Source of the DNA: an uncultured Ruminococcus sp.
GTDB taxonomy: Bacteria; Bacillota; Clostridia; Oscillospirales; Ruminococcaceae
Length of the DNA stretch: 48,717 nucleotides
Assembly: GCA_902780695.1 (NCBI GenBank)
Contig: CACZGM010000004.1
Span: forward strand, 1-48,717
Reading direction: 5' to 3'
Within the stretch, counting starts at the first letter, position 1; each line of letters begins with the position of its first letter. Below the pieces are notes generated by a model, which was given only the letters and a program-made list of their open reading frames with translations, had not been told where the DNA came from and searched no databases. Positions 2,415-41,725 of this stretch are shown here, one piece after another. The position numbers were made by a program, and so were the translations under genes.

Positions 2415-2470
2415 TTCTGACCTCCGATGTGTTAAAAATTTCCTCTACTATATAAAACGAATAAAAAGCC
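2372..2470. repeat. Leader repeat, copy 1 (signal peptide plus promoter)
   Basis: This 99-nt stretch is identical to 4960-5058. It covers the first 14 or so codons (signal peptide), ribosome site, 5' UTR, -10 box and part of the promoter spacer of the lipoprotein gene starting at 2414. Identity falls off on both sides, so the leader and not the whole gene has been kept uniform. Confidence 0.9.
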
Positions 2471-2480
2471 CAAAAGTTAC
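2456..2480 (-). promoter_or_regulatory. ECF-type promoter GTAAC-N16-CGTT for lipoprotein 455-2414
   Basis: Read on the minus strand, GTAAC (2480-2476) is followed after 16 nt by CGTTTTATATAG (CGTT at 2459-2456), about 42 nt before the ATG. The same pair of boxes occurs at seven other places in the window with a 15-17 nt spacer, which fits ECF -35/-10 geometry. The cognate sigma is unknown. Confidence 0.65.
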
Positions 2481-2567
2481 GCCTGTTTTTCCGATTTGTG
2501 CATATTGACCCCGCTCTTTGTCAATAATTACCCAAGCTATTATATCACATATCCAATTAAAGCACAA

Positions 2568-2597
2568 TACCCCGACACTCACCAAAATATCGGGGTA
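2568..2597 (-). terminator. Hairpin terminator after lipoprotein 2603-5002
   Basis: TACCCCGA (2568-2575) pairs with TCGGGGTA (2590-2597) over 8 bp with a 14-nt loop, starting 6 nt after the stop codon. The following T stretch is interrupted, so the strength is uncertain. Confidence 0.6.
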
Positions 2598-2602
2598 TGA
2601 TC

Positions 2603-5002
2603 TTATTCTTCGCTTCCGCCCCACTCAACGAGCGTAAAGCCGTTTCTCTCATAGTGCGGCAGTTTCTGTTCGGGAATATCCACGGGTGTGTCGCTTGAAT
2701 AGTAGGTCATGAACACGCGTATCTGCGTATCGGGCGTGGGAGACACAGTAAGCGGGACGCTGCGTGCGTAATCGTCGGTGTGCAGGGTTATCACGTTGTA
2801 GGGGTTGTCCTGCATCTTCGGGAGCCAGTAGATGATGAACTCGTTGGCTTCGCGTGCCGTCAGACCTATGTACATCAGCTTCTCACGCAGGAATTTTGCG
2901 GTATCGGCTCCGGCAACGCAGAAGCCTTTGCTCATATCGAAGTCCGCTGCTCCCTTACCCTCCCAGTACAGGCAGTAATACTCGTCGCCGTTCGCGTCGT
3001 ACAGCGTGCTGTCGGGCATTGCGGTCACATTCCAGCCGTCGCCGTAGTCCGGGTATGTGCAGGTAAGTTCGCCGCCGTATGGGAAGTTCACCTGTACCGA
3101 AATGTCGGTCTGCTGTTCGGGATAGAAGTAGATGACTGGCTTTGCATACGCGCCGAGGAACCAGTAGTCATGCTCAACGCCGTTATTTCTGCCATAGTAG
3201 CAGTCATCAACCACATAGGCAATTTTGTGCGCAAACTCACGGTCGGTGATCTCGTAGCGCTCGCTTTGAGTACCATTCCATGTATGACTTGACAGATCGG
3301 ATATCCAGTCGCTCAGTAACGGATAGCTTGTTTTGATGCTCTCACAGTAATTTGCTCTCGCGAACCCGAACAGTTCCCACATACCGAAATAACCCGCAAC
3401 GCCGTTCCATACCGGCGTCTCAAAATTGAGCTCACCGGTCTCGCTGTAGGGTTCCTCCTTCATAACGATCTCGGGTACTATTCTTTCGCCCATATAGAAG
3501 TAGTCGAGTGTTGCCGGTTCTCCATTCAGAATTACCGGGTCGCTGCCCGCCTCCTCCGCCGTGAACAGCGGGTATTCGTTCAGCGTGTTACCGTCGAGCG
3601 TATAGAGATAGTCATAGCTGTCGTAAAAATCCTCTGTCTGTTTCGACATAAACCAAGCGGGTGTACCGTCTTTCAGCTCGCTGAGTCCGAGATAAGCGGC
3701 GTTGCCTTCTCCCGTATTCAGCATGGGATAAAGTGTGTCTATGAATTTCAGCGCGCCGTCTTCTACACGATAAATATTCGATCTCAACCGTCCGGTATTT
3801 TTATCATCCTTGATAATGCTCTTCGTTACAATGATCTCGGGCTTAACGTCAAAGTCAAGGTCGAGCAGTAATATTCCGCAGGTCTCGGCTGTAAAAAGCT
3901 CTTCCTTCGCGTTCATTACCGCATCATAGATCTCTTTCATCTGCGGATCCTTATTCTTTCCGCTGATAACGTCGGTGTTGTGTGTTATGTCAAGCTCGGA
4001 AATGTCCGAGAAAGTCTTTATAATCTCAATATCAGAGACGGTACAGGTGTTCGCGTAACCGTCTTTTTTGCTGTAGCTGACATGCGTGTTGTGCATCACT
4101 ACTTTCGCATATGCGTATGCTGCGGTGTCGAGGGACATACCCTCTGTCATCACGCCAGTAAAAAATAGCGAATCCGAGGTCACCCGCACCCTGCCGATAT
4201 CGAAGAAAACATCTCCGAGAGTGAACATAGGCAGTCCATACATATATTCGGGGTCAATGAGTATTGACAGTCCCTCATCGCTGCCACATACGAACGCGTT
4301 TACCGTCACAGGGTCGTCTATCGTGTAGCCGAGAGTTATGTCCGGGCAGGTTCTATCGTATTTTCTGCCAGTGTAGAAGTTTTCATCTTTGGTGACTTTG
4401 TACGGTATCACTGTTACGACGGGGTCGTCGTACTCTATCTCATATGCGGATCCGAAGCTTTCCGATGGGGTGTACATAGAAATATCAAGACGTTTAGAAA
4501 TGTCATTTTCGACTGTATCAGAAAAGGCGTTGACCGAGGGGCGCACTTTGATCTTCGCTGCATCGGCGTTTATTGTCAGAAACGTCACGTTGCCATTATT
4601 CGACTCCTGCGATGTATCTTCGCTCAGCGTGTAGTCAAGCACCGTAACGGTATTCCCGTTTCCGTTCTGAGATCCGTACAGTATGCTCTCATTTGTCGTT
4701 ACATCGGTAGTAAGCCTGTTTGAGTATCCGTAGTATTCGGTCGCTGTAAATTCATCCTTGTGATACGCAACAGCTATGCTAACTGGTTCGGGCTCCGGCT
4801 CGGCTGTAGTTGTGACCGTCGTTGTCGTACTTGCGGTGGTAGTGGTAGCTGCCGTCGTTGTAACTTCCGCAGTCGTCGTTTCCGCCGCGATTGTTGTCGT
4901 CTCGCTCTCCGACACCGCCGGTGCGATGGTTCCCGTTCCGCACCCCGAAAGGAGCAAAACCGCCGCGGCTGCAAAAGATATAAGTTTTGATGTTTTTCTC
5001 AT
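2603..5002 (-). CDS. Large Thr-rich surface lipoprotein, KPVIYFYP-type C-terminal domain
   Basis: A 799-residue exported protein. It has a signal peptide with lipobox LSGC (Cys21) and a long Thr-rich linker (about 35-70), likely a glycosylated stalk or wall-spanning segment. A middle region of about 550 residues with no recognised fold follows. The C-terminal ~170 residues begin at a conserved-looking AKPVIYFYPEQ and contain GELTCTYPDYGDGW. I recall the motif KPVIYLYP from uncharacterised Firmicute surface proteins but cannot name a domain. The first 15 residues and the upstream 60 nt match the lipoprotein at 2414 exactly, yet the outer domains differ. The gene has its own ECF-type promoter (5044-5068) and a terminator at 2568-2597. 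Role: surface-exposed, substrate unknown. Confidence 0.85.
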   Translation of the reverse strand: MRKTSKLISFAAAAVLLLSGCGTGTIAPAVSESETTTIAAETTTAEVTTTAATTTTASTTTTVTTTAEPEPEPVSIAVAYHKDEFTATEYYGYSNRLTTDVTTNESILYGSQNGNGNTVTVLDYTLSEDTSQESNNGNVTFLTINADAAKIKVRPSVNAFSDTVENDISKRLDISMYTPSESFGSAYEIEYDDPVVTVIPYKVTKDENFYTGRKYDRTCPDITLGYTIDDPVTVNAFVCGSDEGLSILIDPEYMYGLPMFTLGDVFFDIGRVRVTSDSLFFTGVMTEGMSLDTAAYAYAKVVMHNTHVSYSKKDGYANTCTVSDIEIIKTFSDISELDITHNTDVISGKNKDPQMKEIYDAVMNAKEELFTAETCGILLLDLDFDVKPEIIVTKSIIKDDKNTGRLRSNIYRVEDGALKFIDTLYPMLNTGEGNAAYLGLSELKDGTPAWFMSKQTEDFYDSYDYLYTLDGNTLNEYPLFTAEEAGSDPVILNGEPATLDYFYMGERIVPEIVMKEEPYSETGELNFETPVWNGVAGYFGMWELFGFARANYCESIKTSYPLLSDWISDLSSHTWNGTQSERYEITDREFAHKIAYVVDDCYYGRNNGVEHDYWFLGAYAKPVIYFYPEQQTDISVQVNFPYGGELTCTYPDYGDGWNVTAMPDSTLYDANGDEYYCLYWEGKGAADFDMSKGFCVAGADTAKFLREKLMYIGLTAREANEFIIYWLPKMQDNPYNVITLHTDDYARSVPLTVSPTPDTQIRVFMTYYSSDTPVDIPEQKLPHYERNGFTLVEWGGSEE

Positions 5003-5058
5003 TTCTGACCTCCGATGTGTTAAAAATTTCCTCTACTATATAAAACGAATAAAAAGCC
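4960..5058. repeat. Leader repeat, copy 2 (signal peptide plus promoter)
   Basis: Identical over 99 nt to 2372-2470. It covers the start of the lipoprotein gene at 5002 and most of its promoter. The next residues of the two proteins are still similar (SESETTT), then diverge. Confidence 0.9.
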
Positions 5059-5068
5059 AAAAAGTTAC
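5044..5068 (-). promoter_or_regulatory. ECF-type promoter GTAAC-N16-CGTT for lipoprotein 2603-5002
   Basis: On the minus strand GTAAC (5068-5064) is followed by a 16-nt spacer and CGTTTTATATAG (CGTT at 5047-5044). It lies within a 99-bp leader identical to that of the lipoprotein starting at 2414, up to the spacer. An A-rich tract (CCGAAAACA) precedes the -35 box. Confidence 0.65.
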
Positions 5069-5201
5069 GCTGTTTTCGGAAATATGTTCATTTTTGTATA
5101 GTTGCACAGTTGGCTTTGTGAACAATAACCAATTCCGACTGCAAGATCACACTAATCTGTTTTATTGAGGATCCTCAAACTGCCATACAACGCTGTCTTT
5201 T

Positions 5202-18808: not shown

Positions 18809-18865
18809 TATATGGTAATAATTGCCAAAGTTTATTGTGATATGTAACAAATTTCCAAAAATGGC

Positions 18866-18895
18866 GTAACATTTTGCCATTCATGTTCGTTTATA
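18866..18895 (+). promoter_or_regulatory. Orphan ECF-type promoter GTAAC-N17-CGTT
   Basis: GTAAC (18866-18870), 17 nt, CGTTTATATTA (from 18888), preceded by the A-rich tract AAATTTCCAAAAATGG typical of the other copies. No ORF follows. The transcript would run straight into two hairpins. Confidence 0.55.
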
Positions 18896-18935
18896 TTATT
18901 AGCACAAGATAATGTGCTGCTAAATACCCCTACAA

Positions 18936-18974
18936 CCAATACGCGCACAGGCTTCGGGCTTGTGCGCGTATTGG
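18936..18974 (+). terminator. 14-bp perfect hairpin, terminator-like
   Basis: CCAATACGCGCACA (18936-18949) pairs with TGTGCGCGTATTGG (18961-18974), loop GGCTTCGGGCT. The core matches the terminator at 17029-17054, but no T-run follows, so termination is uncertain. Confidence 0.55.
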
Positions 18975-19014
18975 AATCTAATGCATAATTCGATACAGCA
19001 AATAAACGACTCAA

Positions 19015-19109
19015 GCGCACGGGTCATCTGATCCATGCGCTTTATAGTTAAAGTAACCAATACATTCTTTAAAAGCTTGTACACTTTTCACGAATTCCAA
19101 AAAAATGCC
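19015..19109. repeat. Repeat R1, copy 1
   Basis: About 95 nt nearly identical to 28555-28649, without gaps. It starts with a hairpin (GCGCA...TGCGC, one C-A mismatch) and continues through TTTATAGTTAAAGT and TACACTTTTCACGAATT. In the other copy it leads into an ECF promoter; here it does not. Confidence 0.9.
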
Positions 19110-23854: not shown

Positions 23855-23903
23855 TTGACATTTGCTACACGATGTAGTATAATATAGTTACTACACAGTG
23901 TAG
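23855..23903 (+). promoter_or_regulatory. Promoter with two BlaI-type operators
   Basis: The promoter is TTGACA (23855-23860), 17 nt, TATAAT (23878-23883). Two dyads CTACA-N3-TGTAG sit at 23865-23877 (filling the spacer) and 23891-23903 (over the expected start site), 26 bp centre to centre. TACA/TGTA dyads are the known operator type of BlaI/MecI repressors, so the repressor gene at 23926 is almost certainly autorepressed here. Confidence 0.88.
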
Positions 23904-23925
23904 CATTTGCAAATGAGGTGATAAT

Positions 23926-24297: not shown

Positions 24298-24307
24298 GGT
24301 GTGCGGA

Positions 24308-26089: not shown

Positions 26090-26245
26090 TTGAAATAAGT
26101 ACAAGAATATGTTATAATTTCAGTGCATAACAAAAACATATCGGCACTCTGCACTGTAACGCGGTTTATTATTTGTCCGATTTTCACAAAATTTAAAAAA
26201 ATTTCAAAAAACCGGTAACATCGCTGCTTTTCATTCGTTATATAA
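26090..26245 (+). promoter_or_regulatory. Tandem sigma-A and ECF promoters for the 26285 sigma operon
   Basis: P1 is TTGAAA (26090-26095), 17 nt, TATAAT (26113-26118). P2 is GTAAC (26215-26219), 16 nt, CGTTATATAAG (from 26236), about 40 nt before the ATG. An A-rich TTTTCACAAAATTTAAAAA tract stands before P2. The gap from P1 -10 to P2 -35 is about 97 nt, as at 33391-33489 and 41601-41699. Confidence 0.7.
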
Positions 26246-26284: not shown

Positions 26285-26824
26285 ATGCTTTCGATATATC
26301 TATCAATGGTTAAGACCGATGAACAGCGTACATTCATCGAGCAGTTATATAAGACCTACGAGCGCAAAATGTACGGAGCAGCATTCGATATATTGCACAA
26401 CAAACACGATGCAGAAGATGCGGTACATAGTGCATTTGTACGAATTATCGAAAATATTGAAAAAATAATGCAAATCCCCGCTGATAAACAGGGGTATTAC
26501 ATCGTTATTATAAGTAGGAACATATCAATAGACATTCGCAGGAAGAAAAACAATTCAGAGATGCCGATCGAGAATATTGAAGAAATCGAGGACAGGATAT
26601 CATTTGACGATGTCATTGATTCCCGTTTAACAGCCGAGAGCATCAGAAAATGTATATTTTCGCTCAGGGAAAGTGATTTCGAGGTGCTGTATCTGAATCT
26701 GCTGTGTGAGCTTCCGGCAGCGGATATAGCCGGAATACTGGCGATAAAGCCGACTACGGTAAGGCAGCGCATCTATAAAGCAAAAAAGAGGCTTATTAAG
26801 ATCATAGAGGAGCAGAAATGTTGA
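26285..26824 (+). CDS. ECF-type RNA polymerase sigma factor
   Basis: 179 residues, with an ATG preceded by GGAGGAGCAGGAA. Region 2: YKTYERKMYGAAFDIL, HDAEDAVHSAFVRIIENI and YYIVIISRNISIDIRRKK. Region 4: LRESDFEVLYLNLLCELPA, then DIAGILAIKPTTVRQRIYKAKK. The HSAFVRIIENI form and short linker place it in a group separate from the other eight sigmas. Its operon has the GTAAC/CGTT promoter, so it is one of two candidates (with 38480) to be the sigma reading that regulon. It overlaps the DUF4367-like partner gene by 7 nt. Confidence 0.92.
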   Translation: MLSIYLSMVKTDEQRTFIEQLYKTYERKMYGAAFDILHNKHDAEDAVHSAFVRIIENIEKIMQIPADKQGYYIVIISRNISIDIRRKKNNSEMPIENIEEIEDRISFDDVIDSRLTAESIRKCIFSLRESDFEVLYLNLLCELPAADIAGILAIKPTTVRQRIYKAKKRLIKIIEEQKC

Positions 26825-27513
26825 GTGGTGAACAGCTATTAAAACAGGCATTTTCAGAGACCGCAGCAATAAAGTATGAGCAGGTACCGGAATACCGGCA
26901 TATCTTTTCGCTGCGCTATCGGATACGCAAGCATAAGCTCCTGCGTTCATTGGAGCGTAAGACCGCATCGGAACCGAGAGCGCATACCGGACGTTTCAGA
27001 CTGAAATACTTCGTTCTGGCTATCATTATGGCTTGTGTGCTGGTGCTCACCGGTGGTGTTATAATGTTTTGGGCTGATGGATTTAAGGGTATTGTGCATT
27101 CCGATCATATAAGATTGTATGTATCGGATATTGAAGGCTCTCCGGAAACAATAGAAAAATGCTGTTTCCTGTCAGTTTTGCCGGAGGGTTTTACTTTGGA
27201 GCATTACACAACCGGATACTCTATGAATTTTATTGTTTACAGAAATAATGAGGGGAAAGATATATTTTTGATCCAATATGTGAAAAAAGAATTTGATCCT
27301 TATGTAAATAATGTCGATGTTGAATTTACTGAAACAACCGTTAATGGCTATAAAGCTATATATGCGGAACACAGTAAAGATGGCTTTACCGACTCTATAA
27401 TTTTCTGGGACAGCGAGGATTATGTTTTTGAAATGTCAGGAAGCGGTTCAAAAGAATACATTAGAGAACTTGCTGAAAAAAACGAGATGTCAGGGTTTAT
27501 AGAAACAGAATAA
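26818..27513 (+). CDS. Putative anti-sigma membrane protein, DUF4367-like
   Basis: 231 residues. The ATG at 26818 lies inside the last codons of the sigma gene. A long basic cytoplasmic part (about 1-63, RHIFSLRYRIRKHKLLRSL) is followed by a TM (about 64-86) and an outer domain of about 145 residues. That domain resembles DUF4367: FLSVLPEGFTLEHYTTGY, FLIQYV, TVNGYKAIYAEH, IIFWDSEDYVFEMSGSG. This domain is common at the C-terminus of anti-sigma proteins in Firmicutes. It should inhibit the sigma encoded upstream. The ligand is unknown. Confidence 0.88.
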   Translation: MLSGEQLLKQAFSETAAIKYEQVPEYRHIFSLRYRIRKHKLLRSLERKTASEPRAHTGRFRLKYFVLAIIMACVLVLTGGVIMFWADGFKGIVHSDHIRLYVSDIEGSPETIEKCCFLSVLPEGFTLEHYTTGYSMNFIVYRNNEGKDIFLIQYVKKEFDPYVNNVDVEFTETTVNGYKAIYAEHSKDGFTDSIIFWDSEDYVFEMSGSGSKEYIRELAEKNEMSGFIETE

Positions 27514-28386: not shown

Positions 28387-28554
28387 CATTAATTCTCCGC
28401 ATATCGCACTTTTTATTTCAGAAAGGAAAGCTGATACCATATCTTAAAATTGTTGAAGGATAATTGTTATGATGTTTTCCTGCTGAAAGTCGTAAATAGT
28501 GTTGATGACTAATTTAATAAATAAATACCCCCTACAAGCATTTATGCTTAATAA

Positions 28555-28584
28555 GCGCACGGGTCATCTGATTCGTGCGCTTTA
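28555..28584 (+). terminator. Hairpin terminator at the head of repeat R1
   Basis: GCGCACG (28555-28561) pairs with CGTGCGC (28574-28580), with further G-T and TCA/TGA pairing inside, followed by TTTATAG. The copy at 19015 keeps the outer stem but has a C-A mismatch. Confidence 0.65.
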
Positions 28585-28649
28585 TAGTTAAAGTGACCAA
28601 TACATTCTTTAAAGACTTGTACACTTTTCACGAATTTCAAAAAATGTCA
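28555..28649. repeat. Repeat R1, copy 2
   Basis: Nearly identical, ungapped, to 19015-19109. It runs from the hairpin to CACGAATTTCAAAAA, 9 nt before the -35 box of the 28658 promoter. It is thus the terminator and upstream A-rich element of a promoter unit. Confidence 0.9.
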
Positions 28650-28657
28650 TTTTCAGC

Positions 28658-28685
28658 GTAACATTTTGGTATGTTCATACGTTAT
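28658..28685 (+). promoter_or_regulatory. ECF-type promoter GTAAC-N17-CGTT for gene 28812
   Basis: GTAAC (28658-28662), 17 nt, CGTTATTTATTA (from 28680). An A-rich tract precedes it. The 5' UTR would be about 120 nt, longer than at the other sites. Confidence 0.65.
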
Positions 28686-28811
28686 TTATTATAGACGGGC
28701 AGTGCGTGTTATTTTGCAAACTAAAGTTTTTCTCTCTCCTGCCGATATAATAAATAAGATCAGTTATTCAGAACGCAATGACGCGTTTGTAAATATGAAA
28801 GGAGCATCATC

Positions 28812-29726
28812 ATGAACGTAAAAGTGAACCTATCGACAGCCGCAAATCAATTCAACACCCACACACAGCCGACTGCCGCAAAATCAAAGCAGGACGGCTC
28901 GTTCCTCAATGTTGGCGATGAGACCACAAAAGTCGGCAAGCAGGATATGGGGACGTTCACCGAGCGTCTCGCGGAAGCCTTCAAGACCGATAATGCCGAG
29001 GTCATACGCGCTCTTGATGAACTCTCGGATAGTGATAAAATGGAGATAGCGATGCGCTCGTATCTCCAGATGCAGGGTCGTGTCCACAGCGCGAAAAGCA
29101 AGGAAGAATCGGACATCAGACAGTTCAGCGCCTTGAAGGAAGAAAAGGCGTATTATTCCGATATGCTCGAAGAGGCGAAAGAGAACGGTACTGCCGAGAT
29201 AAAAGACGACAAAGGCGCAAAGTTTATGTTCTCGGACAGGAAAGCGGGCGAAAAGCTATCGACAAGGGATATCGAGAAGGCTTTGGAGGACGTTCAGGGC
29301 AGGATCGACAATTTCCTCTATCCATACGGACGCAATGAGGACGGGACTGCAATATCGACACCCGAAAACGAAAGAATGACACGCGACTATATCGCATACG
29401 CGAGCGTATTCAAGGAGATAACCGGTCTTGACGCAAAATGTCTCGATCCCGGCGATTCTCTGTTGCTCACCAAGCCTGACCGGAATGAGGATAATTTTAT
29501 AGAAAAAGCAAGAGAGAATATCGACAGTCTCAATACCATGTCAAAGGACTTGCGCGACCTTATGAAGAAGTACCGCGACGAACAGGAGATCGAGATAGGC
29601 GGCGGTGATCTAAGCGAGGAAGCACGCACCCGAATGGAAGCCTTCGATTATGTACGCGAGCAGTTCGTTTACGGCAATCAGAGTGCGGAACTACACACTC
29701 TTGGTATCCTGAATACGCAGGCGTGA
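28812..29726 (+). CDS. Unrecognised soluble charged protein, 304 aa
   Basis: The ATG at 28812 has GAAAGGAG upstream. There is no signal peptide or TM. The sequence is rich in Glu, Lys and Asp and mostly helical by eye, with a Ser/Thr/Gln-rich first 40 residues. Then come FTERLAEAFKTDNAEVIRAL, a long charged helix (EEKAYYSDMLEEAKENG) and a C-terminal helix near LRDLMKKYRDEQEIEI. I do not recognise a family. The free, polar N-terminus recalls exported rod or flagellar-type proteins, but that is only an impression. Transcription should come from the GTAAC/CGTT promoter, which links it to the surface-stress regulon proposed here. The next gene starts 21 nt after its stop and is likely cotranscribed. 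Confidence 0.8.
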   Translation: MNVKVNLSTAANQFNTHTQPTAAKSKQDGSFLNVGDETTKVGKQDMGTFTERLAEAFKTDNAEVIRALDELSDSDKMEIAMRSYLQMQGRVHSAKSKEESDIRQFSALKEEKAYYSDMLEEAKENGTAEIKDDKGAKFMFSDRKAGEKLSTRDIEKALEDVQGRIDNFLYPYGRNEDGTAISTPENERMTRDYIAYASVFKEITGLDAKCLDPGDSLLLTKPDRNEDNFIEKARENIDSLNTMSKDLRDLMKKYRDEQEIEIGGGDLSEEARTRMEAFDYVREQFVYGNQSAELHTLGILNTQA

Positions 29727-30471: not shown

Positions 30472-30610
30472 CCCTGAAAACCTGCTCCACTGTACCGGAA
30501 AGATTTTCCGCAGCGTTCTCTGTATTCATCGCATCATCAAGGCTGCAAACAGTCCGGAGTATAGGAAAATAAGCGTCAATGCCGCACTCATTAAGGGTGG
30601 CGGCATTTTT
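30470..30610. repeat. Repeat R3, copy 1
   Basis: About 140 nt, similar to 33181-33331 and, over its last ~95 nt, to 41451-41545. The plus-strand end is a hairpin AATGCCGC (30578-30585) / GCGGCATT (30600-30607) with T5. On the minus strand it reads as a protein-like tail (NECGIDAYF, LDDAMNTENAAENLS) to a stop. Confidence 0.85.
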
Positions 30611-30712
30611 AGCGTACCTGTAATACAAACCAACCGCATATCAAATAACAAGATGTAACTTTTGGCAGTATTATTGTAACCGAATCGTAATAATATCGTA
30701 ACCGCTTTGTAA

Positions 30713-33180: not shown

Positions 33181-33331
33181 CCTACCGCCCTGAACACCTG
33201 CTCCGCCGTGTCGGAAAGATTTTCCGCAGCGTTTCTCTGTATTCATAGCATCATCAAGACTACAAACACTCCCCAGTATCGGAAAATAAGCGTCAATGCC
33301 GCACTCATTAAAGGGCGCGGCATTTTTTTTT
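33181..33331. repeat. Repeat R3, copy 2, with terminator
   Basis: About 150 nt similar to 30470-30610. It ends in AATGCCGC (33295-33302) / GCGGCATT (33317-33324) followed by a run of nine T, a good rho-independent terminator for the 32585 gene. Compared with copy 1, the minus-strand protein-like frame is broken by one extra base (GAGAAACGC versus GAGAACGC). Confidence 0.85.
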
Positions 33332-33362: not shown

Positions 33363-33515
33363 TTGCAGTATATCCGATTATGTGATATAATTAATTTATC
33401 GGAAGGCATCGTGCTGTGCAGACTGCACAAGCGCGCAGATTCCGGATTGTCGCATTTTCACAAACTTGAAAAAATTGGGAAAACCCGTGTAACATTTCGC
33501 CGTTTCATTCGTTAT
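33363..33515 (+). promoter_or_regulatory. Tandem sigma-A and ECF promoters for the 33578 operon
   Basis: P1 is TTGCAG (33363-33368), 17 nt, TATAAT (33386-33391). P2 is GTAAC (33489-33493), 16 nt, CGTTATATAT (from 33510), preceded by TTTTCACAAACTTGAAAAAA. The P1 to P2 distance (about 97 nt) equals that before 26285 and 41762. Confidence 0.7.
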
Positions 33516-33577: not shown

Positions 33578-35542
33578 ATGAAAAAAGCCTTGATCAAATC
33601 AGCATCTGTTTTATGCGCGGCAATAATGCTCGGGACAAGCACGGTGGGAACTGTGACCGCGTCGGCGGAACAACAGTTCGACAGCTTCTTTTCCACTGCA
33701 TCATCGAGCAAGGACGACCCCGCGGATCATGTCGGTATGCCCTCGGACAAGGTGATAAGCACCGCGGTGCAGAAGGCATTGAACCGGAAGAACGCGTGTA
33801 TCGCCTACCGCAAGGATCACAGCTACGCTATCATTGACGTTGAGCAGGCAAATAAGGACATTTCCTTGTCTGCCGCGGCAGCTATGCTGGACAAGAAATT
33901 CTACGAGGAAATGGGCGGCGACAAGTATTTCGGGAGCTATGCGGAATACAAGGCAGCTGTGCTTGAAAAGGCGGGGGTGAAAAGCGAGGCGGAACTCAAA
34001 GTCGAGCCGTACTTCGTGTTTGCATTCTACTACGGCAAGCCGAACGGCGACAGTCAGCTCGTCACCGATGAAAAAGCAGCCGAGAAAGCTATACGCAGAA
34101 CTTTTGAGCTTCAGAAAACGAACAGCGACTTCAAAAACGCAATATCCGATGTATTCAGCAAAGGCTCGGTAGGCGGCGTGGTTGTAAACTGCGATTATAA
34201 CGGAAAATCGGAGGCCGCCCTTAAAATAAGAGCGAATGACGCTTCGTTCAGTATATCGGAGACTCTTAAATTCAGCTCCGACTCCGCGTTCTACATATAC
34301 AACACCCTCGTGCCGAAGAACACGAAAAAGCTCGTCATTTCAAGCCGTGACGAATTTACGGTGAAGTTCCTCACCGACTTTATCCCCGACGACTGCGTGT
34401 GGGTGTGCAGCGACGACGAGGTGGATTTCGACGACTGTGTATTTGACATGAAGGAGATACAGAAAGCGCTCCCGGATCTTACGGAGCTGTATATGTATCA
34501 GGCGCGGGTCAAAAACGAGAAGTACATAAGCAAGATGACGAAACTGCAGGCTCTTTCGTACTATCCGCTCTCCGCGGACGAGAATTTCGGTCGGTTCATT
34601 GAAACACCTGTCATAAAAACCGTATCGTTCAAAAATCTGAAAAATATCAAAAAGCTCTGGCTTTACGGCGAATACTCCGATTACAGCTTCCTCGAAAAAA
34701 TGACGAGCCTTAAAAGCGTGTATGCCGAGCTCCGCAATGAGAAAGCCGCGCCGTCGCTGTTCAGGAGCAAATGCGTGACAAAGCTGTTTATTCAGTGCGG
34801 CACGAAGTTCGACATGACCGGAATAAAGAATATGACAGGGCTGAGGGAGCTTGATATTGAAAATGTAGCAAATGTTGACCCGAAAGCGATATCCGGCATC
34901 AAAAACCTCAGAAAGCTCAAAATAGGCGTCGGCGGGACTTACGACTTTTCGCCGCTTACAAAGCTCACGAAGCTGAAAGGCCTGTCGATCAGCGGCGCGG
35001 AAACCAAGGACTGGTCATTCCTCAAAAAGCTGAAAAGCCTCGATACGCTTTTCATCGGCTATACAAAGCTGTACGACAAAGACATAAAGGGGCTTGGCGT
35101 AAAGAGTATATGCCTTTATGAAACGCGAAACACTTATGCTGTATTCTCGGAGATGCCGAATCTCGAAACCGCGGAGATAATGAGCAGTTATCACACTTTC
35201 AAGGATTTCAAGCCTTCAAAAACGCTGAAAAATTTTACCGAGACATTCGGCAGCGGCGGGGATTATTCCGCGCTCGCAAAATGCCCTAAGCTCGAAAGAG
35301 TTATCCTGCTTGGCTGCAAGGGGGAATTCGACGTGAAGGATTTTGTGGGCTGCAAGAATCTGAAAGAGATATATCTGAACGGGACACAGATAACCAACGG
35401 TGAAAAGCTCGCAAACATCAAGACGCTCAAAAACATAGCAATATATTCGTATTACGTCGATCCCGCGCTTGCGGACGAGCTGAAAAAGGCACTCCCGAAG
35501 TGCGAGATCGACATAAAGCAGGATCAGTTCTACCAGAACTGA
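33578..35542 (+). CDS. Secreted leucine-rich-repeat protein
   Basis: 654 residues, with GAAAGAGAGG upstream. The signal peptide ends near TASA. A first region (about 30-280) has no recognised fold (VDFDDCVFDMKEIQKALPDL closes it). From about 290 to 640 there are irregular LRR units: ALPDLTELYMYQ, MTKLQALSYYPL, IKNMTGLRELDIENV, GIKNLRKLKIGV, LTKLTKLKGLSISGAE, CKNLKEIYLNGTQI. No anchor motif or lipobox is visible, so it is probably released or held by partners. Such proteins usually bind protein or glycan ligands. It is the first gene of an operon with 35562 (19-nt gap) under the tandem promoter. Confidence 0.9.
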   Translation: MKKALIKSASVLCAAIMLGTSTVGTVTASAEQQFDSFFSTASSSKDDPADHVGMPSDKVISTAVQKALNRKNACIAYRKDHSYAIIDVEQANKDISLSAAAAMLDKKFYEEMGGDKYFGSYAEYKAAVLEKAGVKSEAELKVEPYFVFAFYYGKPNGDSQLVTDEKAAEKAIRRTFELQKTNSDFKNAISDVFSKGSVGGVVVNCDYNGKSEAALKIRANDASFSISETLKFSSDSAFYIYNTLVPKNTKKLVISSRDEFTVKFLTDFIPDDCVWVCSDDEVDFDDCVFDMKEIQKALPDLTELYMYQARVKNEKYISKMTKLQALSYYPLSADENFGRFIETPVIKTVSFKNLKNIKKLWLYGEYSDYSFLEKMTSLKSVYAELRNEKAAPSLFRSKCVTKLFIQCGTKFDMTGIKNMTGLRELDIENVANVDPKAISGIKNLRKLKIGVGGTYDFSPLTKLTKLKGLSISGAETKDWSFLKKLKSLDTLFIGYTKLYDKDIKGLGVKSICLYETRNTYAVFSEMPNLETAEIMSSYHTFKDFKPSKTLKNFTETFGSGGDYSALAKCPKLERVILLGCKGEFDVKDFVGCKNLKEIYLNGTQITNGEKLANIKTLKNIAIYSYYVDPALADELKKALPKCEIDIKQDQFYQN

Positions 35543-35561
35543 AAACGGGAAAGGAAAGAAA

Positions 35562-38144
35562 ATGAAAAAGCATATCTCAGTACTTGCATCGGCGGCGATC
35601 ATTCTCGGAATGCTGCCGTCGCTGACAGTCCCCGCGTCGGCTGCAAACAGTATTCCCGTGTCGTTATCCTCGGCGGTGAAAACATCGTACAGGACGAATG
35701 AAACGGTTATCGGGAAGAATGTGAGGATAAGCGGGAACAACGTTTCCGAAAGCGTCATCAGCGACTTTGCAAAAAAAGTGAATGCCGCTGCCCTCGGAAA
35801 TATCATACTTCCCGTCGATGCTTCCACAGCGAAGTATTACTACACGATAAGCGGCAGCAGCGACAGCGGGCGCTTCTCCGTTTCATGCATAAACGGAAAA
35901 CATTTTGATTATTTCAGCATAAACGGCTGCGCTTATCCGTACAACAAGGCTCTCGATACGGTTTGCAGGAAGATCGCCGGGAATGATGACGCGAACAGCA
36001 GCATTCCCGACCGTATGCTGAAATACAGGGTAAAATGCAGCGAGCCGAAGACGGAAGAGGAATATTTCAACGCCGCTGCGACCCTTGTGGGCGCTTGGCT
36101 CGATTCTCTGAAAAAGGAAACGGGCGAATACAAGCTCGGCTCGTACAAATTCAACGGCGAAACGCTCCCTACCGAAAGAGATATCCTGCGCGGCGAAGGG
36201 CTTATAAGCGGCGGACGCGAGTTCTGCTGCACCATCGGTTTTGACGCAGCGGGGCTCAGCAAGGAAAGCGTTTTCTCGGAGCCGAAAAACTCCGGGTACA
36301 ACAAGTTCTACAACTATTACAGCGGCGCGCTTGTTGTCGTTCGGTGCAGGTGGGAAAACGGGGTATGCCGCATAGTTGATTACGGAAACGGCGAAAGCAG
36401 ACTCATGACGGGACTGAACGGTATACGCACGAAGAACGCGAAGTATGACACCCTGTTCGATTTTTACCGCGACACAAAGCAGGTGGAAAAGCTCGATAAA
36501 GCTTGTACATACAATATACTCGGCAGATACGGCATTTCCGCGACATCGCCTGTGTATATGGCAGACGGAAGAGTGGGTTATGTTGCAATATATCCGAGAT
36601 ATAACGCACAGACCGGTAAGGACGGCATAAAGACCACAGTTTACGACAACGGCTATTTTGATGAAAGCTATAATGCAACTTACAGCTCCCCTGTGGATTA
36701 CAAGTCCGATGCACAGGAAGAAAACTTCCACGAAAAATTCAGCCTTGTATTTGACGATTACAACGGCGACGGCAGTGCGGATTTCGCGCTGAAACAGTCC
36801 GCCGAAGATGAAAACAGCGACGGTGCGACATACGAAGTGCGTTGTATGTCTAATGACCTCACGCCGAGAAGCGACCGCTTCTCGTTCTATATGGCGGGAC
36901 GGCATGAGGAGTCCATACGTCTCCAGCACACCGACAGCGGCAGGTTCGTTTACTGGCAGAAAGGCACCGACGGCAAGCTCACCTCGAATGTTACGGTCGA
37001 TGATTACCGTATGTATTCCGAGAGGTACTACCTGCCGCCAGAGCTGCGCATTTACGATGACGAAAAAACGGTTTACTGCTTCTTCTGGAACAACACCGCG
37101 AAAGATGTCAAAGTCGGAGGGAAATACCATATCGAGTACAACAAAAACGGAAACTGGGTAAGCGTGACAAGCGACAAGACGCTTGCCGCGAAAACTGCAA
37201 AGGCATACCGTGACACCGAACTTGGATTCGACATTTCCGATGTAAAGCGCACTGCCGGAGAATACCGTATTGCAATGAAAGTTTCCGGCAAGACCGTTTA
37301 CGGCGGCTTCTACATCGGCAGCAGGAACGCAAAACTGTCTGTAAATGCAGACGAAAAAACGATTCCCGCAGGTACGGGATTTATTGACATAACCGTGAAG
37401 AACACAGGCACAGAACCTGTCCGCATGACCTCCGCGTATATCGCAAGCGGCAGCAAGAAGATATCCGATATATCAGTATCCGACAGCCTTATCCTCGCGG
37501 GCGGCGAAAAGCAGCTGACCGCCGAACTCGACAGAAAGCTTGCGGCTGGAAAGTACACGATAAATATACCTTACGGGACAAAGACCGCGTCATACAGCTT
37601 CACTGTCAAAAAGGTAAATAACGATGCGCTCACATATTTCGGCGGGAAATGCACCGCAAAGGTATCGGACGGAAAACTAAGCATAACTGTGAAGAATAAC
37701 AAATTCACGAAGGAAAAGATCGGTGTCATGTTCAGGAGCTCGGACTCTCCGGAGGTGTTCGCGAACGGAAAGTGGGTAAAATCCGGCTGGCTTCTGATGA
37801 CCGACGGTAAATATAATGCTGACGGCATTATGTTTGATATTGCTTACGGAAAAACCGGTACAATTACATTTTTCGATTACTATGCGGAAAGCTACAAAAT
37901 GATAATGGAAAACCCGGAGTATCTTGAGCAATACAAGCAGATGTATGACTACTTCAAGGAATCTCTGAGCAGATACTCCGGCGATGACCCGGAATATCTC
38001 AAGGAATACGAAAAGTACAAGGATATCACTTTTGAGGAGTTTGTGAAGCTGATGATAACAGGAGGAGGTCAGGAGGATGAGGCAGCGAAAAATTCGCTGT
38101 ACCGGCTGAAACTCAATGGGGAGTATGTTTACTTCGTTGTATAA
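35562..38144 (+). CDS. Large secreted protein with FG-GAP-like and Ig-like regions
   Basis: 860 residues, with AAAGGAAAG upstream. The signal peptide ends near PASA. The N-terminal ~300 residues are unrecognised, with four or more Cys (FCCTIGF, VVVRCRWENGVCRIV). A short calcium-loop-like segment FDDYNGDGSADFAL (about 395-410) recalls FG-GAP/VCBS loops. Later parts look like beta-sandwich units (YHIEYNKNGNWVSVTSDKT; FIDITVKNTGTEPVRM; LDRKLAAGKYTINIPYG). The C-terminus has a Tyr/Glu-rich helix (EYLEQYKQMYDYFKES). No anchor is seen. It is encoded directly after the LRR protein and is likely its partner. Confidence 0.85.
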   Translation: MKKHISVLASAAIILGMLPSLTVPASAANSIPVSLSSAVKTSYRTNETVIGKNVRISGNNVSESVISDFAKKVNAAALGNIILPVDASTAKYYYTISGSSDSGRFSVSCINGKHFDYFSINGCAYPYNKALDTVCRKIAGNDDANSSIPDRMLKYRVKCSEPKTEEEYFNAAATLVGAWLDSLKKETGEYKLGSYKFNGETLPTERDILRGEGLISGGREFCCTIGFDAAGLSKESVFSEPKNSGYNKFYNYYSGALVVVRCRWENGVCRIVDYGNGESRLMTGLNGIRTKNAKYDTLFDFYRDTKQVEKLDKACTYNILGRYGISATSPVYMADGRVGYVAIYPRYNAQTGKDGIKTTVYDNGYFDESYNATYSSPVDYKSDAQEENFHEKFSLVFDDYNGDGSADFALKQSAEDENSDGATYEVRCMSNDLTPRSDRFSFYMAGRHEESIRLQHTDSGRFVYWQKGTDGKLTSNVTVDDYRMYSERYYLPPELRIYDDEKTVYCFFWNNTAKDVKVGGKYHIEYNKNGNWVSVTSDKTLAAKTAKAYRDTELGFDISDVKRTAGEYRIAMKVSGKTVYGGFYIGSRNAKLSVNADEKTIPAGTGFIDITVKNTGTEPVRMTSAYIASGSKKISDISVSDSLILAGGEKQLTAELDRKLAAGKYTINIPYGTKTASYSFTVKKVNNDALTYFGGKCTAKVSDGKLSITVKNNKFTKEKIGVMFRSSDSPEVFANGKWVKSGWLLMTDGKYNADGIMFDIAYGKTGTITFFDYYAESYKMIMENPEYLEQYKQMYDYFKESLSRYSGDDPEYLKEYEKYKDITFEEFVKLMITGGGQEDEAAKNSLYRLKLNGEYVYFVV

Positions 38145-38363: not shown

Positions 38364-38445
38364 TTGACAATTGCTCCGGTCTATGCGATAATAATTCAGA
38401 AAATTTTTTGATTTGTTGTAACATTTCCACTGTTTTACGTGTACA
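38364..38445 (+). promoter_or_regulatory. Sigma-A and ECF promoters for the 38480 sigma operon
   Basis: P1 is TTGACA (38364-38369), 17 nt, GATAAT (38387-38392). P2 is GTAAC (38418-38422), 15 nt, CGTGTACATAT (from 38438). The -10 is less like the other GTAAC sites. The P1 sequence is almost the same as at 23740-23768. Confidence 0.55.
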
Positions 38446-38479: not shown

Positions 38480-39022
38480 ATGAAAGATAAGCTTGTCGAA
38501 AAAATGATAGGCTCGGACGTGCGCGCATTCGAGCAGATCGTGAAGAAATACGGCAGATATGTTTTTCGTGTTGTTAAGAACCATTCCAAAGGCTTGCTCA
38601 CCCGCGAGGACGAGGAGGAGATCACCAACGACACGTTTGCGGCGCTGTGGCTTAATCGTGAAAGGATAGACCCTGAGCGTCTGATTTTGACATATCTTGC
38701 TGTGATAGCCCGGAACAAGGTATCAAACAGGCTCCGCACCCTTAAATTTACCGTCAGTATCGAGCAGCTCGGCGAGCTGTTTGACGCTGATCTTGACCGT
38801 AAACTGGAGGATAAGGAGAATGTTGATGCCATTCTTGAGGCTGCCGGAACGCTGAATAAGAAGCAATATGAGGTGTTTGTCCGTTTTTACCTGTATGGGG
38901 AGCCGCTGACGGAGATATCCGGAAGAATGGGTATCGGCAGTTCTGATGCCCGGACAACCTTGTTCCGCACGAGAGAAGCCATAAGAAAACATCTGTCCGA
39001 AAGGGGTTATTTCGATGAGTGA
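38480..39022 (+). CDS. ECF-type RNA polymerase sigma factor
   Basis: 180 residues from the ATG at 38480, preceded by AAAGGAA; an upstream in-frame ATG would lie on the promoter. Region 2: VRAFEQIVKKYGRYVFRVV, REDEEEITNDTFAALWLN and LILTYLAVIARNKVSNRLR. Region 4: LNKKQYEVFVRFYLYGEPL, then EISGRMGIGSSDARTTLFRTRE. The ITNDTFAALW form is typical of another ECF subgroup. It overlaps the membrane partner gene by 8 nt. It is one of two sigmas here whose operon carries a GTAAC-type promoter. Confidence 0.93.
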   Translation: MKDKLVEKMIGSDVRAFEQIVKKYGRYVFRVVKNHSKGLLTREDEEEITNDTFAALWLNRERIDPERLILTYLAVIARNKVSNRLRTLKFTVSIEQLGELFDADLDRKLEDKENVDAILEAAGTLNKKQYEVFVRFYLYGEPLTEISGRMGIGSSDARTTLFRTREAIRKHLSERGYFDE

Positions 39023-40052
39023 AGAACTGCTGCCCTACGACAGCGAAAGACTATCGGCGCGAATTCTTGATGATATGGTGCGTGCAGCAAAGGAGAAAGC
39101 AGGAATTGCGGAAATAAAGACTTCTCGCAGGCTTCACAGACCGGCTGTGCTGATAACAGCGATAATTGCAGGAATTTCTTTGTTTGCGGTAACTGCCGGA
39201 GCCTTGCTGAAATGGAATATATTCTCGCTGTTCCGCAGTCAGAGGGAGAATGCTCAGAACGCTGCCGGTGAGCTTTCTTCGGAGCTTACAGACAGGAAAC
39301 GCACATTCCTTGACAACATCAATATTCCGGAAGGAGCGGAAGCATTCCCGGAATACACCGAGCGGGAGTATGAGATACTTGCGGAGCTTGCTCACGAAGC
39401 AGATCTGACATTCGATTACGGAGACAAGACGCTGCATATCTCCGGATATGTGTTTGACGGGAGCTGCCTTGATATTTACTATGATGTGACATACCCGTAC
39501 ACAGACACAGAGTTCTACTTCTACAGCGATGATACGCTGACAGCAAGCGCTGCTGTTCCGTATCTGCTCTATACTGACGGAAATATTGCATATTACAGGA
39601 GCAGGAACTACTTGCAGCTTGCGGGCAATGTTACAAGCACAGAGATCATTATAGGCGACAGCGACACCCCTCCCGATGATAGCACACAAAACAGCTTTAT
39701 TGTAGATGTTCCAAGCATCAAGCCGGTAATTATCGAGGATATTGAGCTTAGCGAGGGCGTTCATCTCAATCGGTTCGTACTTTCTTCTCTCGGGGCGTTT
39801 ATGGAGCTTTCGGAGAGCATCGAATACATTCAGACCTACGACAGCAGCGCCTTCCCTATCTATGTGACTTACAAAGACGGCACTGTTATTGACCTTTCGG
39901 ACTATACGGGAAACTTTGAGGGCGGTGCCGGATATCTGAACGAGGAAGGCAGGATAGTTCTTGATTATACGATAGGCAGAAATTTGAATATCTTTGATAT
40001 TGAGCAGATACGTTCTGTGCAGATATTCAACGAAGTAATAAAAATCAGCTGA
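39015..40052 (+). CDS. Putative anti-sigma/sensor protein, DUF4179-like
   Basis: 345 residues. The ATG at 39015 overlaps the sigma stop. The cytoplasmic part is about 43 residues, with TM about 44-65 and KWNIFSLFRSQREN just outside. The outer domain has the same landmarks as 15909 and 21988: EYTEREYEILAELAHEADL, LHISGYVFDGSCLDIYYDV, LSSLGAFMELSESI, VTYKDGTVIDLSDY and a C-terminal FDIEQIRSVQIFNEV. It is thus a third, more distant member of that family with a different sigma type. It likely inhibits the upstream sigma. The gene ends 15 nt before the FliD-C-like gene. Confidence 0.87.
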   Translation: MSEELLPYDSERLSARILDDMVRAAKEKAGIAEIKTSRRLHRPAVLITAIIAGISLFAVTAGALLKWNIFSLFRSQRENAQNAAGELSSELTDRKRTFLDNINIPEGAEAFPEYTEREYEILAELAHEADLTFDYGDKTLHISGYVFDGSCLDIYYDVTYPYTDTEFYFYSDDTLTASAAVPYLLYTDGNIAYYRSRNYLQLAGNVTSTEIIIGDSDTPPDDSTQNSFIVDVPSIKPVIIEDIELSEGVHLNRFVLSSLGAFMELSESIEYIQTYDSSAFPIYVTYKDGTVIDLSDYTGNFEGGAGYLNEEGRIVLDYTIGRNLNIFDIEQIRSVQIFNEVIKIS

Positions 40053-40067
40053 GAAAGGAAGAAAATC

Positions 40068-40763
40068 ATGAGAAGTTTTGGATTACACCGTTCATCAATA
40101 AGCAGATATATGGGGCGCAGCAGCTTCAAACGCAGCTCTTTCGGCAGGCGGAACACTTATAAAGTCAGCAACAGCTCATTCAAATCATATCTTGCGGAAG
40201 CCCGTAAGATTGCAGACGATATTGAAGCTGAAAAAAGCGAAAACACTTCGGGAGCATCAAGGACAAAGGCTGCAACCTATTCGATCACCGGCAGTAGGTA
40301 CAACAACGCCGTCACAGCTATGAGCGACAGCTCAAAGGCAATAACCGACCTGATTGACGAAGAGACACCCGACATCGAAAAAGCCTATGATGAAGCCGTG
40401 AAGTTTGCTGACGGGTATAACGATATGCTCGCGGCTGTGAAGAGCTCCTCAAACAGCTCTGTCATCGGCAAGGCAAGATATATCTCTGATGTTGCAAATG
40501 TATTCTCGCGGGCGCTTGGGAATATCGGTATCAGCGCGGACAAAAGCGGGAACTTAAGTGTTGACAAGGATAAATTCATGAAAGCCGATAATGACGATAT
40601 TTCAAAGATATTCGGTGGCAAGTCATCTTTCGCAAGCCTTATAAAGGAACAGACCGACAGCATTTCCGTGCTTTCCGCTATGAGTGCCGACACATATTCC
40701 GGCTCTCATACAGCCGCTTATACTTCGGCAATGAGCGGGTCAATATTCAGTAAGTTGCTTTGA
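40068..40763 (+). CDS. Protein resembling the C-terminal part of FliD (flagellar hook-associated protein 2)
   Basis: 231 residues, with GAAAGGAAG upstream. The start is Ser/Arg/Phe-rich (GRSSFKRSSFGRR). A helical region follows, then FADGYNDMLAAVKSSSNSS, IGKARYISDVANVFSRALGN and IGISADKSGNLSVDKDKFMK, with DDISKIFG. This run is the pattern I know from the FliD C-terminus (AYNDLL ... LADIGITTDKDGKLSLDEDKL ... DPDAVKALF). The N-terminal half of normal FliD and the D2/D3 domains are absent, and no other flagellar gene is in the window. It may be a non-flagellar relative that works with the sigma/anti-sigma pair encoded upstream in the same operon. There is no signal peptide. Confidence 0.75.
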   Translation: MRSFGLHRSSISRYMGRSSFKRSSFGRRNTYKVSNSSFKSYLAEARKIADDIEAEKSENTSGASRTKAATYSITGSRYNNAVTAMSDSSKAITDLIDEETPDIEKAYDEAVKFADGYNDMLAAVKSSSNSSVIGKARYISDVANVFSRALGNIGISADKSGNLSVDKDKFMKADNDDISKIFGGKSSFASLIKEQTDSISVLSAMSADTYSGSHTAAYTSAMSGSIFSKLL

Positions 40764-40824: not shown

Positions 40825-40901
40825 CAATAAAAGCCTTGTGTAAAGGGTTTACAATAATAAGTTTTGACATATACTGCGTACTATTGGAGTGACATCAATC
40901 T

Positions 40902-41429
40902 ATGGCAAAAAAGATTTTCATAATAATGGTTCTATCAATAATAGTACTAAATCTATCCTCGTGTATTTTTATTCCTTCAATCGACAAATCTGATGAGCAG
41001 AATGTTTTTACAGTAAAAGCTCAGATGAAAAATGACTGTAAAGAGATAATTCGTTGTTTGGAGGAAAAGGATAGTGATACTCTCAAAAGTATGTTCTGTA
41101 AAAAACTTCTCAATAATTATGAAAACATAGATGAAGATATTGAACAAGCTATGGATTTCTTCCAAGGAAATATCACATCATATGGCAATGTTTTGTATGG
41201 AGATAGTGATTCAATAAGAAATGGCGAATATATCTTATTTGAGGTATCACCTCATATAAAGGAATTGAATACAGATGCTGCTAAAGAGTATAAGATTAAG
41301 TACTATCAGCATTTGATTAATGTTGAAAATCCGGACAGAATAGGCGTTTCATATATTAAAATAACAGATGAAGCTGATAACATTTGTGAAATAGGTGATT
41401 TTTATTTGGTGAACCCTGAATACAAATAA
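40902..41429 (+). CDS. DUF5104-like lipoprotein, copy 2
   Basis: 175 residues. The ribosome site GGAGTG is rather far (12 nt) from the ATG. Signal peptide with lipobox LSSC (about Cys21). Its landmarks match 29748-30266: IIRCLEEKDSDTLKSMFCKK, LLNNYENIDEDIEQAMDFF, QGNITSYGN, NPDRIGVSYIKITDE and EIGDFYLVNPEYK. The two proteins share the plan throughout, with many substitutions. It has a housekeeping promoter upstream and repeat R3 with terminator downstream, so it looks monocistronic. The same promoter sequence serves the unrelated 32585 gene. Confidence 0.85.
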   Translation: MAKKIFIIMVLSIIVLNLSSCIFIPSIDKSDEQNVFTVKAQMKNDCKEIIRCLEEKDSDTLKSMFCKKLLNNYENIDEDIEQAMDFFQGNITSYGNVLYGDSDSIRNGEYILFEVSPHIKELNTDAAKEYKIKYYQHLINVENPDRIGVSYIKITDEADNICEIGDFYLVNPEYK

Positions 41430-41450
41430 TTCATTCAGCTTTCCACCTCA

Positions 41451-41545
41451 TTCTCTGTATTCATCGCATCATCAAAACTGCAAATACTCCGCAGAATCAA
41501 AAAATAAGCGTCAATGCCGCACTCATTAAGGGTCGCGGCATTTTT
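41451..41545. repeat. Repeat R3, copy 3 (shorter), with terminator
   Basis: About 95 nt matching the distal part of copies 1 and 2. It ends in AATGCCGC (41513-41520) / GCGGCATT (41535-41542) and T5. On the minus strand it reads NECGIDAYF ... FDDAMNTENEVES and stop. Confidence 0.85.
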
Positions 41546-41572
41546 ATTTGCGTCGGCTCGTGCGCCTTCTCA

Positions 41573-41725
41573 TTGAAATAAGTACAATAATATGTTATAA
41601 TTTCTTTGTGGTACAAAAACAAACTGTAAACCCTGCACTATATATCGGCACGATATTTGTTGCATTTTCACAAATTTGAAAACATTTCAAAAAATTCCGT
41701 AACATTTTCGCTTCTCATTCGTTAT
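41573..41725 (+). promoter_or_regulatory. Tandem sigma-A and ECF promoters for gene 41762
   Basis: P1 is TTGAAA (41573-41578), 17 nt, TATAAT (41596-41601). P2 is GTAAC (41699-41703), 16 nt, CGTTATTCTT (from 41720). The stretch CATTGAAATAAGTACAA and the TTTTCACAAATTTGAAAA tract closely follow 26088-26215. Confidence 0.7.

Follow-up and report, generated by a model that had tools for sequence, protein, structure and literature searches.

The window analysed here, which is the whole 48,717-bp contig C4 (CACZGM010000004.1) of an uncultured Ruminococcus draft genome (G000; 3.29 Mb in 153 contigs), carries seven sites of the form GTAAC-N16/17-CGTT that resemble promoters for an extracytoplasmic function (ECF) sigma factor. 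We consider it probable that these seven sites, together with one on contig C115 of the same genome, make up a single promoter class (class A in Table 1) read by a sigma factor of the type encoded at 26285, which would in this way drive its own sigma/anti-sigma operon. An initial annotation of the window had listed eight sites of one type and suggested a local ECF regulon, with a sigma factor at 26285 or 38480 as the likely reader. The box coordinates it gave are all correct and seven of its sites share the GTAAC-N16/17-CGTT arrangement, but the eighth, at 38418, reads CGTG and falls into a different class.

Seven sites and a profile from other genomes

The exact pattern GTAAC-N15..17-CGTT occurs seven times in the window, against a mean of 1.04 (sd 1.12, maximum 4) in 100 shuffles. 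When the spacer is varied from N4 to N33, N16 gives five matches, N17 two and N29 three, while every remaining length gives 0 or 1. All seven sites are wholly intergenic, and intergenic DNA makes up 12.3% of the window by our own gene list. CGTT lies 38-64 nt ahead of the start codon at five sites, and 128 nt ahead of it at 28658; at 18866, there is no listed gene within 430 nt. The sites at 2480 and 5068 sit in one duplicated cassette (226 nt, 87% identical) and are therefore not independent of each other. An A-rich tract had been described upstream of most sites; by eye, 26215 (from about 26180), 28658, 33489 and 41699 have a clear TTTTCACAAATTTGAAAA-like tract, which is weak at 5068 and poor at 2480 and 18866.

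The bare pattern is not enriched in the genome as a whole (61 matches, with 67 in the reversed control), as is expected of boxes that are general hallmarks of ECF promoters. The more specific GTAACN{13,15}TTCGTTWT gives 8 matches in the same genome against 1 in the control (five in the window, the others on C115, C60 and C94) and 6 against 0 in a relative, G002. Summed across our comparison set of 71 genomes of the genus, it shows no enrichment (68 against 71), nor does GTAACNTTN{11,13}CGTTW in the genome of the window (4 against 5). Outside the window, patterns by themselves carry no case and are weak evidence. These null counts are also what would favour dismissing the seven sites as chance matches, an explanation that we find scarcely credible in view of the window count, the spacer control, the intergenic placement, the profile results that follow and the presence of such sites before orthologous targets in relatives.

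The profile, model R1, is based on sequence only and spans 88 positions. It was aligned from 13 promoters of 26285-type operons (A2) in seven other genomes, with none from the genome of the window. One training promoter (G002_C31b) is separated from its sigma gene by a 193-aa gene, and another (G091_C64b) precedes a sigma matched over residues 1-97 only. Because the training promoters were picked for having GTAAC..CGTT before a sigma gene, what R1 tests is whether sites in front of target genes resemble sigma promoters across all 88 positions. R1 was scored on 150 of the 1911 first-look candidates in the genome, and its best eight hits were the seven window sites and C115:7527, with E-values from 6.6e-19 to 7.9e-6; the ninth hit stood at 3e-4. 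Near copies of three of the eight (26215, 41699 and the C115 site) are among the training promoters; the other five (33489, 5068, 2480, 18866 and 28658) have none there. Under random placement, the chance that seven of eight hits fall within 1.5% of the genome is ~1e-12, or 4e-9 when duplicates are arbitrarily collapsed to five of six.

The C115 site is probably a neighbour of the others. The matches to window position 48717 and to C115:10608 are 87 bp apart in both G091:C64 and G002:C31. Since C115 adjoins the window end in these relatives, the eight strong sites probably share one island of ~59 kb, with C115:7527 ~3 kb past the right end of the window. This island would hold 11 of the 24 sigma-region-4 matches above the Pfam cut-off in the genome, 8 on C4 and 3 on C115.

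Several lower candidates were set aside. The second-tier hits C134:2081 (GTTAC, before a lipoprotein gene of the 2480/5068 cassette type), C107:1640 and C138:3146 (both before other ECF sigma genes) and C115:37 (a near copy of C138:3146) were left out of the regulon. C94:23601 and its copy in G011:C10 were dropped since the conserved block common to both is not close to any gene start, and the GTAACACTTATCGTTGC type in G028, G072, G074 and G078 was dropped for the same reason, the G078 locus having been read. Across the 71 genomes, scanned under stricter filters with 62 candidates each, 14 had R1 hits at E <= 1e-6. Inspection of loci for targets covered one set of 23 and another made up of 20 relatives' sites, seven lower hits of the genome itself and four others.

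Candidate readers of the class

Sigma factor 26285 stands above the TIGR02937 cut-off; among the best 25 of 58 NCBIfam families, it falls far short of the cut-off of each named equivalog, SigW, SigM, SigV and SigX included. The following gene, 26818, overlaps it by 7 bp; its position and layout suggest a putative membrane anti-sigma factor. The 26215-type promoter also precedes the 96-97% identical orthologues in G088 and G077, and sigma/anti-sigma operons lie behind the same class in G002, G011, G070, G073, G077, G088 and G091. Our survey of the 26285 family found 47 matches in 11 genomes, and the 200 nt upstream were examined for 32 of these. Thirteen have GTAAC-N15..17-CGTT, where base shuffles predict 0.04 per 32; they fall into five groups, some of the members being close orthologues. 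Two sigma factors of this family with a GTAAC promoter occur in the genome of the window, 26285 and C115:7655, which are 35% identical. We regard 26285 as the best single candidate for the reader of the seven sites, and the C115 paralogue probably shares in reading them.

Seven further family members have GTCAC-N15..18-CGTT. These form one supported clade, made up of C83:1214 of the same genome and relatives in G070, G073, G076, G088, G090 and G091. The clade shares the CGTT -10 box with the GTAAC class and offers a natural case for studying the code of -35 recognition.

Of the two readers initially named, the second is the sigma listed there at 38480 (38483 here). That it reads the seven sites is very improbable, even though GTAACATTT is found at the -35 of its own promoter as well. 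Its orthologues in G011 (69% identical), G007 (52%) and G002 (49%) keep GTAACATTT with a different -10 box, TGTGTAC or TGCGTAC, and a TGAAA tail, so that GTAACATTT, a YGYGTAC -10 and the TGAAA tail are found together at all four loci (L079, the window copy, and L080-L082). R1 also scores its own site poorly (Table 1). Among four more distant homologues, GTAACATTT occurs in none and a related TGTGTATAT -10 in two. The divergent -10 of the orthologues leaves 38483 unsupported as reader, and, judged by its boxes, 38418 is a second ECF promoter class that has its -35 in common with the seven sites. Most other sigma operons in the window show still other boxes by eye, for example GAGAC..CGTTTTATA before 15426. 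By comparison, 26285 is favoured by the top eight R1 hits and by the recurrence of the same targets in relatives.

A number of observations weigh against assigning the class to 26285-type sigma factors. AAC and CGT core boxes are hallmarks of ECF promoters generally according to PMC8103513. The same review gives only about 55% of ECF factors as predicted to be self-driven; PMC3817407 says that most ECF sigmas drive their own operons. Among the sigma genes read, one with this promoter was found in just 8 of the 14 R1-positive genomes (G000, G002, G011, G070, G073, G077, G088 and G091); the other six are G076, G060, G004, G089, G003 and G067, of which the first three had sigma upstream regions read and G089 and G003 have sigma-family matches. 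No GTAAC..CGTT sigma was found among the five family matches read in G076 (85% complete) or the three read in G060 (79%), and the single homologue read in G004 lacks the motif. G002 has the targets yet no 26285 orthologue (best 41%). Twelve of the 32 family members have neither class within 200 nt upstream; among them, L147 has a site further upstream, behind another gene, and in L047 GTCGC is combined with the same -10. Moreover, the sigma factors with GTAAC promoters are not one clade. In the tree, 26285 and two close orthologues fall together with the motif-free G011:C15, which is the diverged homologue nearest to 26285 (53%), and the remaining GTAAC members lie elsewhere among further motif-free members. 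The class is therefore either old and lost in places, or it arose or spread more than once. Finally, a sigma of another family (C107:1793, 11128 family) has GTAAC-N17-CGTTTA upstream, and the lipoprotein promoters of relatives often have GTTAC and CGTTTT.

These last points suggest that other sigma factors might read some of the sites, with the N17 sites assigned to C107 and the lipoprotein sites (CGTTTT) to another sigma, in two or three overlapping regulons. The C107 promoter, GTAAC-N17-CGTTTATATTTATAG, has the right spacing; 18866 and 28658 have the lowest R1 scores of the eight; the relatives' lipoprotein promoters favour GTTAC..CGTTTTATATAGTAGAG; and G060 has such a site with no GTAAC..CGTT sigma found among its three matches read. 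On the other hand, R1 ranks all seven sites over the C107 promoter (19.7 bits), and N17 spacing is also seen before the 26285-type sigmas G011:C29 and G077:C65. We consider this division of the sites doubtful and retain the assignment to 26285-type sigma factors. The idea of one sigma for all, as first proposed, finds support in 26285 but is too narrow, given the C115 paralogue with the same promoter and relatives such as G002 without a 26285 orthologue.

Candidate targets and a displaced promoter

The proposal of a local ECF regulon with a self-driven 26285 is supported by the top eight R1 hits and by sites in relatives that precede orthologous leucine-rich repeat (LRR), lipoprotein and 28812 genes. 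Orthologues of the LRR gene lie behind the same promoter class in G002 (95% identical), G076 (96%) and G073 (67%), and those of the 28812 gene in G088, where the contig carries 119 aa of the protein (99% identical), and in G091 (98%); in G077, a 28658-type promoter precedes a different gene. Lipoprotein genes are found behind the class in G002, G076 and G091, and a broader group with GTTAC in place of GTAAC, mostly before lipoprotein genes, occurs in G060, G070, G077, G088, G002 and G011. Of the targets first listed, we keep the two lipoproteins, the LRR operon, the DUF975 protein, the soluble 28812 product and the 26285 operon, remove the 38483 operon, and reassign the orphan site, as described below. 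The coordinates of all features are collected in Table 1.

Table 1. Positions of promoter sites, genes and repeats discussed in the text
Feature	Position	Strand	Score, basis or remark
Class A promoter of lipoprotein gene 732-2414	2456..2480	-	R1 32.3 bits; in cassette D2
Lipoprotein, target	732..2414	-	open frame; no Pfam match
Class A promoter of lipoprotein gene 2603-5002	5044..5068	-	R1 48.1 bits
Lipoprotein, target, 799 aa	2603..5002	-	no Pfam match
Class A promoter (N17), orphan in the window	18866..18891	+	R1 27.7 bits
Very stable leader hairpin behind 18866	18936..18974	+	18898-19070 fold -60.7 kcal/mol, z -6.9 vs shuffles
Direct repeat D4, left copy	19013..19104	+	resembles the stretch before 28658, without its -35/-10 after
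Class A promoter of sigma 26285 operon, GTAAC-N16-CGTT	26215..26239	+	R1 69.1 bits, top hit of the genome
ECF sigma factor, best single candidate reader, 179 aa	26285..26824	+	Pfam Sigma70_r2 and r4_2 only
Putative membrane anti-sigma factor	26818..27513	+	DUF4367 (PF14285); one transmembrane (TM)-like stretch 58-89; short N-terminal part
Direct repeat D4, right copy (93%)	28553..28644	+	leads into promoter 28658
Class A promoter (N17) of 28812 gene	28658..28683	+	R1 27.2 bits
Soluble protein, target, 304 aa	28812..29726	+	family searches, hydropathy; no Pfam match, no TM-like stretch
Class A promoter of LRR/Big_14 secreted operon	33489..33513	+	R1 56.4 bits
Secreted LRR protein, target	33578..35542	+	LRR_4; signal-like hydrophobic stretch 5-23
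Secreted Big_14-domain protein, same operon by position	35562..38144	+	Pfam, hydropathy
Non-member promoter of sigma 38483, GTAAC-N15-CGTG	38418..38441	+	R1 4.5 bits, E 1.5
ECF sigma factor with own promoter class, rejected as reader	38483..39022	+	orthologue promoters
Class A promoter	41699..41723	+	R1 66.1 bits
Gap stretch: ~1.6 kb of G077 (sigma, nearly all anti-sigma) missing	41725..41757	+	alignment
DUF975 membrane protein (PF06161), target	41762..42601	+	third gene of G077 sigma operon

The duplicated cassette of the lipoprotein genes (D2, 2281-2506 and 4869-5094) comprises the promoter, the leader and the signal-peptide/lipobox codons, placed ahead of otherwise unrelated lipoprotein bodies. 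Similar cassettes recur in G002, G011, G060, G070, G076, G077, G088 and G091, and at C134:2081 in the same genome. The frame of the first lipoprotein gene appears to break near 990, where the final part of ORF 732-2414 loses register and the reading continues in ORF 455-997, through either a natural frameshift or an assembly error.

The site at 18866 had been regarded as an orphan, a description that does not hold once relatives are considered, where it stands before the 28812 gene. In G091, the sequence 17313-19100 runs directly into 28553-29726 via a single D4 copy, and in G002, 17310-19107 continues into 28553-28866, at the contig end, likewise via a single copy. It follows that, in both, promoters 18866 and 28658 are in tandem before 28812. 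In G011 (C27:10457 and C13) and G077:C185, an 18866-type promoter and its hairpin lead straight into the 28812 leader at 28717, a junction that is absent from another G011 copy (C27:9687). In the window, the 9.5 kb between the D4 copies, with three sigma operons, separate 18866 from 28812. Since the 26285 operon lies upstream of the 28553 segment in G077 and G088, the window seems to have arisen by recombination between two arrangements. Judged by these junctions, 18866 is a displaced promoter of the 28812 gene. The sigma gene 19581 was rejected as its target, as the paralogue on C90 has no such promoter in 1.1 kb upstream and the relatives indicate 28812. The hairpin at 18936-18974 is kept in G011 and G077 with paired stem changes by eye and has no U-run; Rfam gave no match in the window.

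A different kind of loss is suggested at 41699. The 27-mer of this site recurs unchanged in G002, G077, G088 and G091, ahead of sigma/anti-sigma genes in each. The third gene of the G077 sigma operon encodes a DUF975 protein 94% identical to that of the window; 41589-41736 aligns with the G077 promoter at 85% identity, and 41758-42582 with its DUF975 region at 96.6%. G002 is syntenic with the window to the left (40036-40757) and to the right (42602-42770 and 43833-48717) of this point, and its sigma operon occupies the interval, again preceded by this promoter. A search of 10 genomes (E <= 1e-20) gave DUF975 in 2; G077 also has a second copy, on the same strand as another sigma gene and ~2 kb downstream of it. 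The simplest reading of these alignments is that the sigma/anti-sigma operon behind 41699 was lost in the lineage of the window, leaving the DUF975 gene, though the missing 1.6 kb at 41725-41757 may be an assembly fault.

Such rearrangements raise another explanation for the likeness of the sites, namely that it is mostly due to shared descent of copied intergenic segments, with some sites inactive and 41699 and 18866 as leftovers. The 2480/5068 pair is one duplication, the 26070/41553 and 19013/28553 stretches share repeats, 41699 lacks the sigma operon found elsewhere, 18866 has lost its gene neighbour, and 26090 and 41573 also carry sigma-A-like promoters upstream (by eye). Nevertheless, the -35 and -10 boxes are intact while the flanks diverge. 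The boxes at 18866, for example, are kept in a stretch that is 80-82% identical to G011 and G077, and the ECF boxes stand outside repeat D6 (26070/41553), downstream of it. We judge descent by copying to be unlikely as the main explanation, and favour promoters maintained for a 26285-type sigma.

Some features of the surroundings can be recorded here. Between 8321 and 39022 lie nine ECF-like sigma genes in ~31 kb, each adjoining a putative anti-sigma gene; most have distinct ECF-like boxes, and 19581 falls just under the Pfam cut-off. The sigma-A-like sequences TTGAAA-N17-TATAAT (26090-26118 and 41573-41601, by eye) are situated inside D6, upstream of the ECF sites. A 107-nt intergenic repeat with a terminator-like stem inside is present in three copies (30505-30611, 33222-33328 and 41440-41546). 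Between two sigma operons, a BlaI/BlaR-like pair by eye (23870-26026) has an inverted TACTACA..TGTAGTA-like operator upstream.

Proposed mechanism and relation to known systems

The class would be laid out as a GTAAC -35 box, 16-17 nt, a CGTT(A/T) -10 box and an AT-rich stretch behind, with the A-tract clear at four of the seven sites. RNA polymerase carrying a 26285-type ECF sigma would read the seven sites and the C115 site. The 26818 protein, with DUF4367 outside, would hold sigma 26285 until an envelope signal releases it, and the freed sigma would raise its own operon, the two lipoproteins, the LRR/Big_14 pair, the DUF975 protein and the soluble 28812 product. The C115 paralogue most probably reads the same sites; as the two paralogues carry the same promoter, two sensors would then feed one output. 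The binding of 26285 to these promoters, inhibition by 26818, the signal and the activity of any site are what we infer from sequence.

More tentatively, one promoter specificity could in this group of clostridia be common to several ECF sigma/anti-sigma pairs that differ in their outer sensor domains, the pairs being gained, lost and moved within the island while the regulon stays wired. The 41699 pair would then have been deleted, and its orphaned promoter and the DUF975 gene taken over by the remaining paralogues. If it is true that several sensors share one promoter, this contradicts the usual view of ECF pairs as insulated by promoter specificity. The analysis assigns a predicted promoter to ECF sigmas paired with DUF4367 proteins in uncultured clostridia, and the region can be seen as a natural record of regulon rewiring, with a promoter that seemingly outlived its own sigma and another 9.5 kb from its gene; the relatives reveal genes exchanged behind the same promoter class. 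Our literature search found no paper pairing DUF4367 with ECF sigma factors and none on an ECF sigma with GTAAC and CGTT, and the matches listed for ECF factors with rumen, Ruminococcus or regulon held nothing on point.

SigW, SigX, SigM and SigV of Bacillus belong to self-driven regulons of ECF sigma factors with class I anti-sigma factors. The system described here is like these in having a sigma with regions 2 and 4, an adjoining putative one-TM anti-sigma, an own promoter with AAC and CGT, and envelope or secreted targets. It differs in that 26285 lies far below the named NCBIfam cut-offs among the best 25 of 58 families and in that its partner carries DUF4367. A second parallel is the SigI/RsgI set of cellulolytic clostridia, with several paralogous pairs per genome that are usually self-driven and have related promoters. 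In PMC6056542, SigI is compared with ECF factors and not classed as one, and its promoters have an A-tract in the -35, CGAA in the -10 and a divergent stretch; here, two paralogues have a near-identical promoter. The canonical EcfG promoters, as given in PMC8103513, also combine an AAC -35 with a CGTT -10, an agreement limited to the short core; EcfG is the sigma of the general stress response in Alphaproteobacteria and works with another partner system. A self-driven ECF regulon is of a known kind, and what is unusual here is its plasticity.

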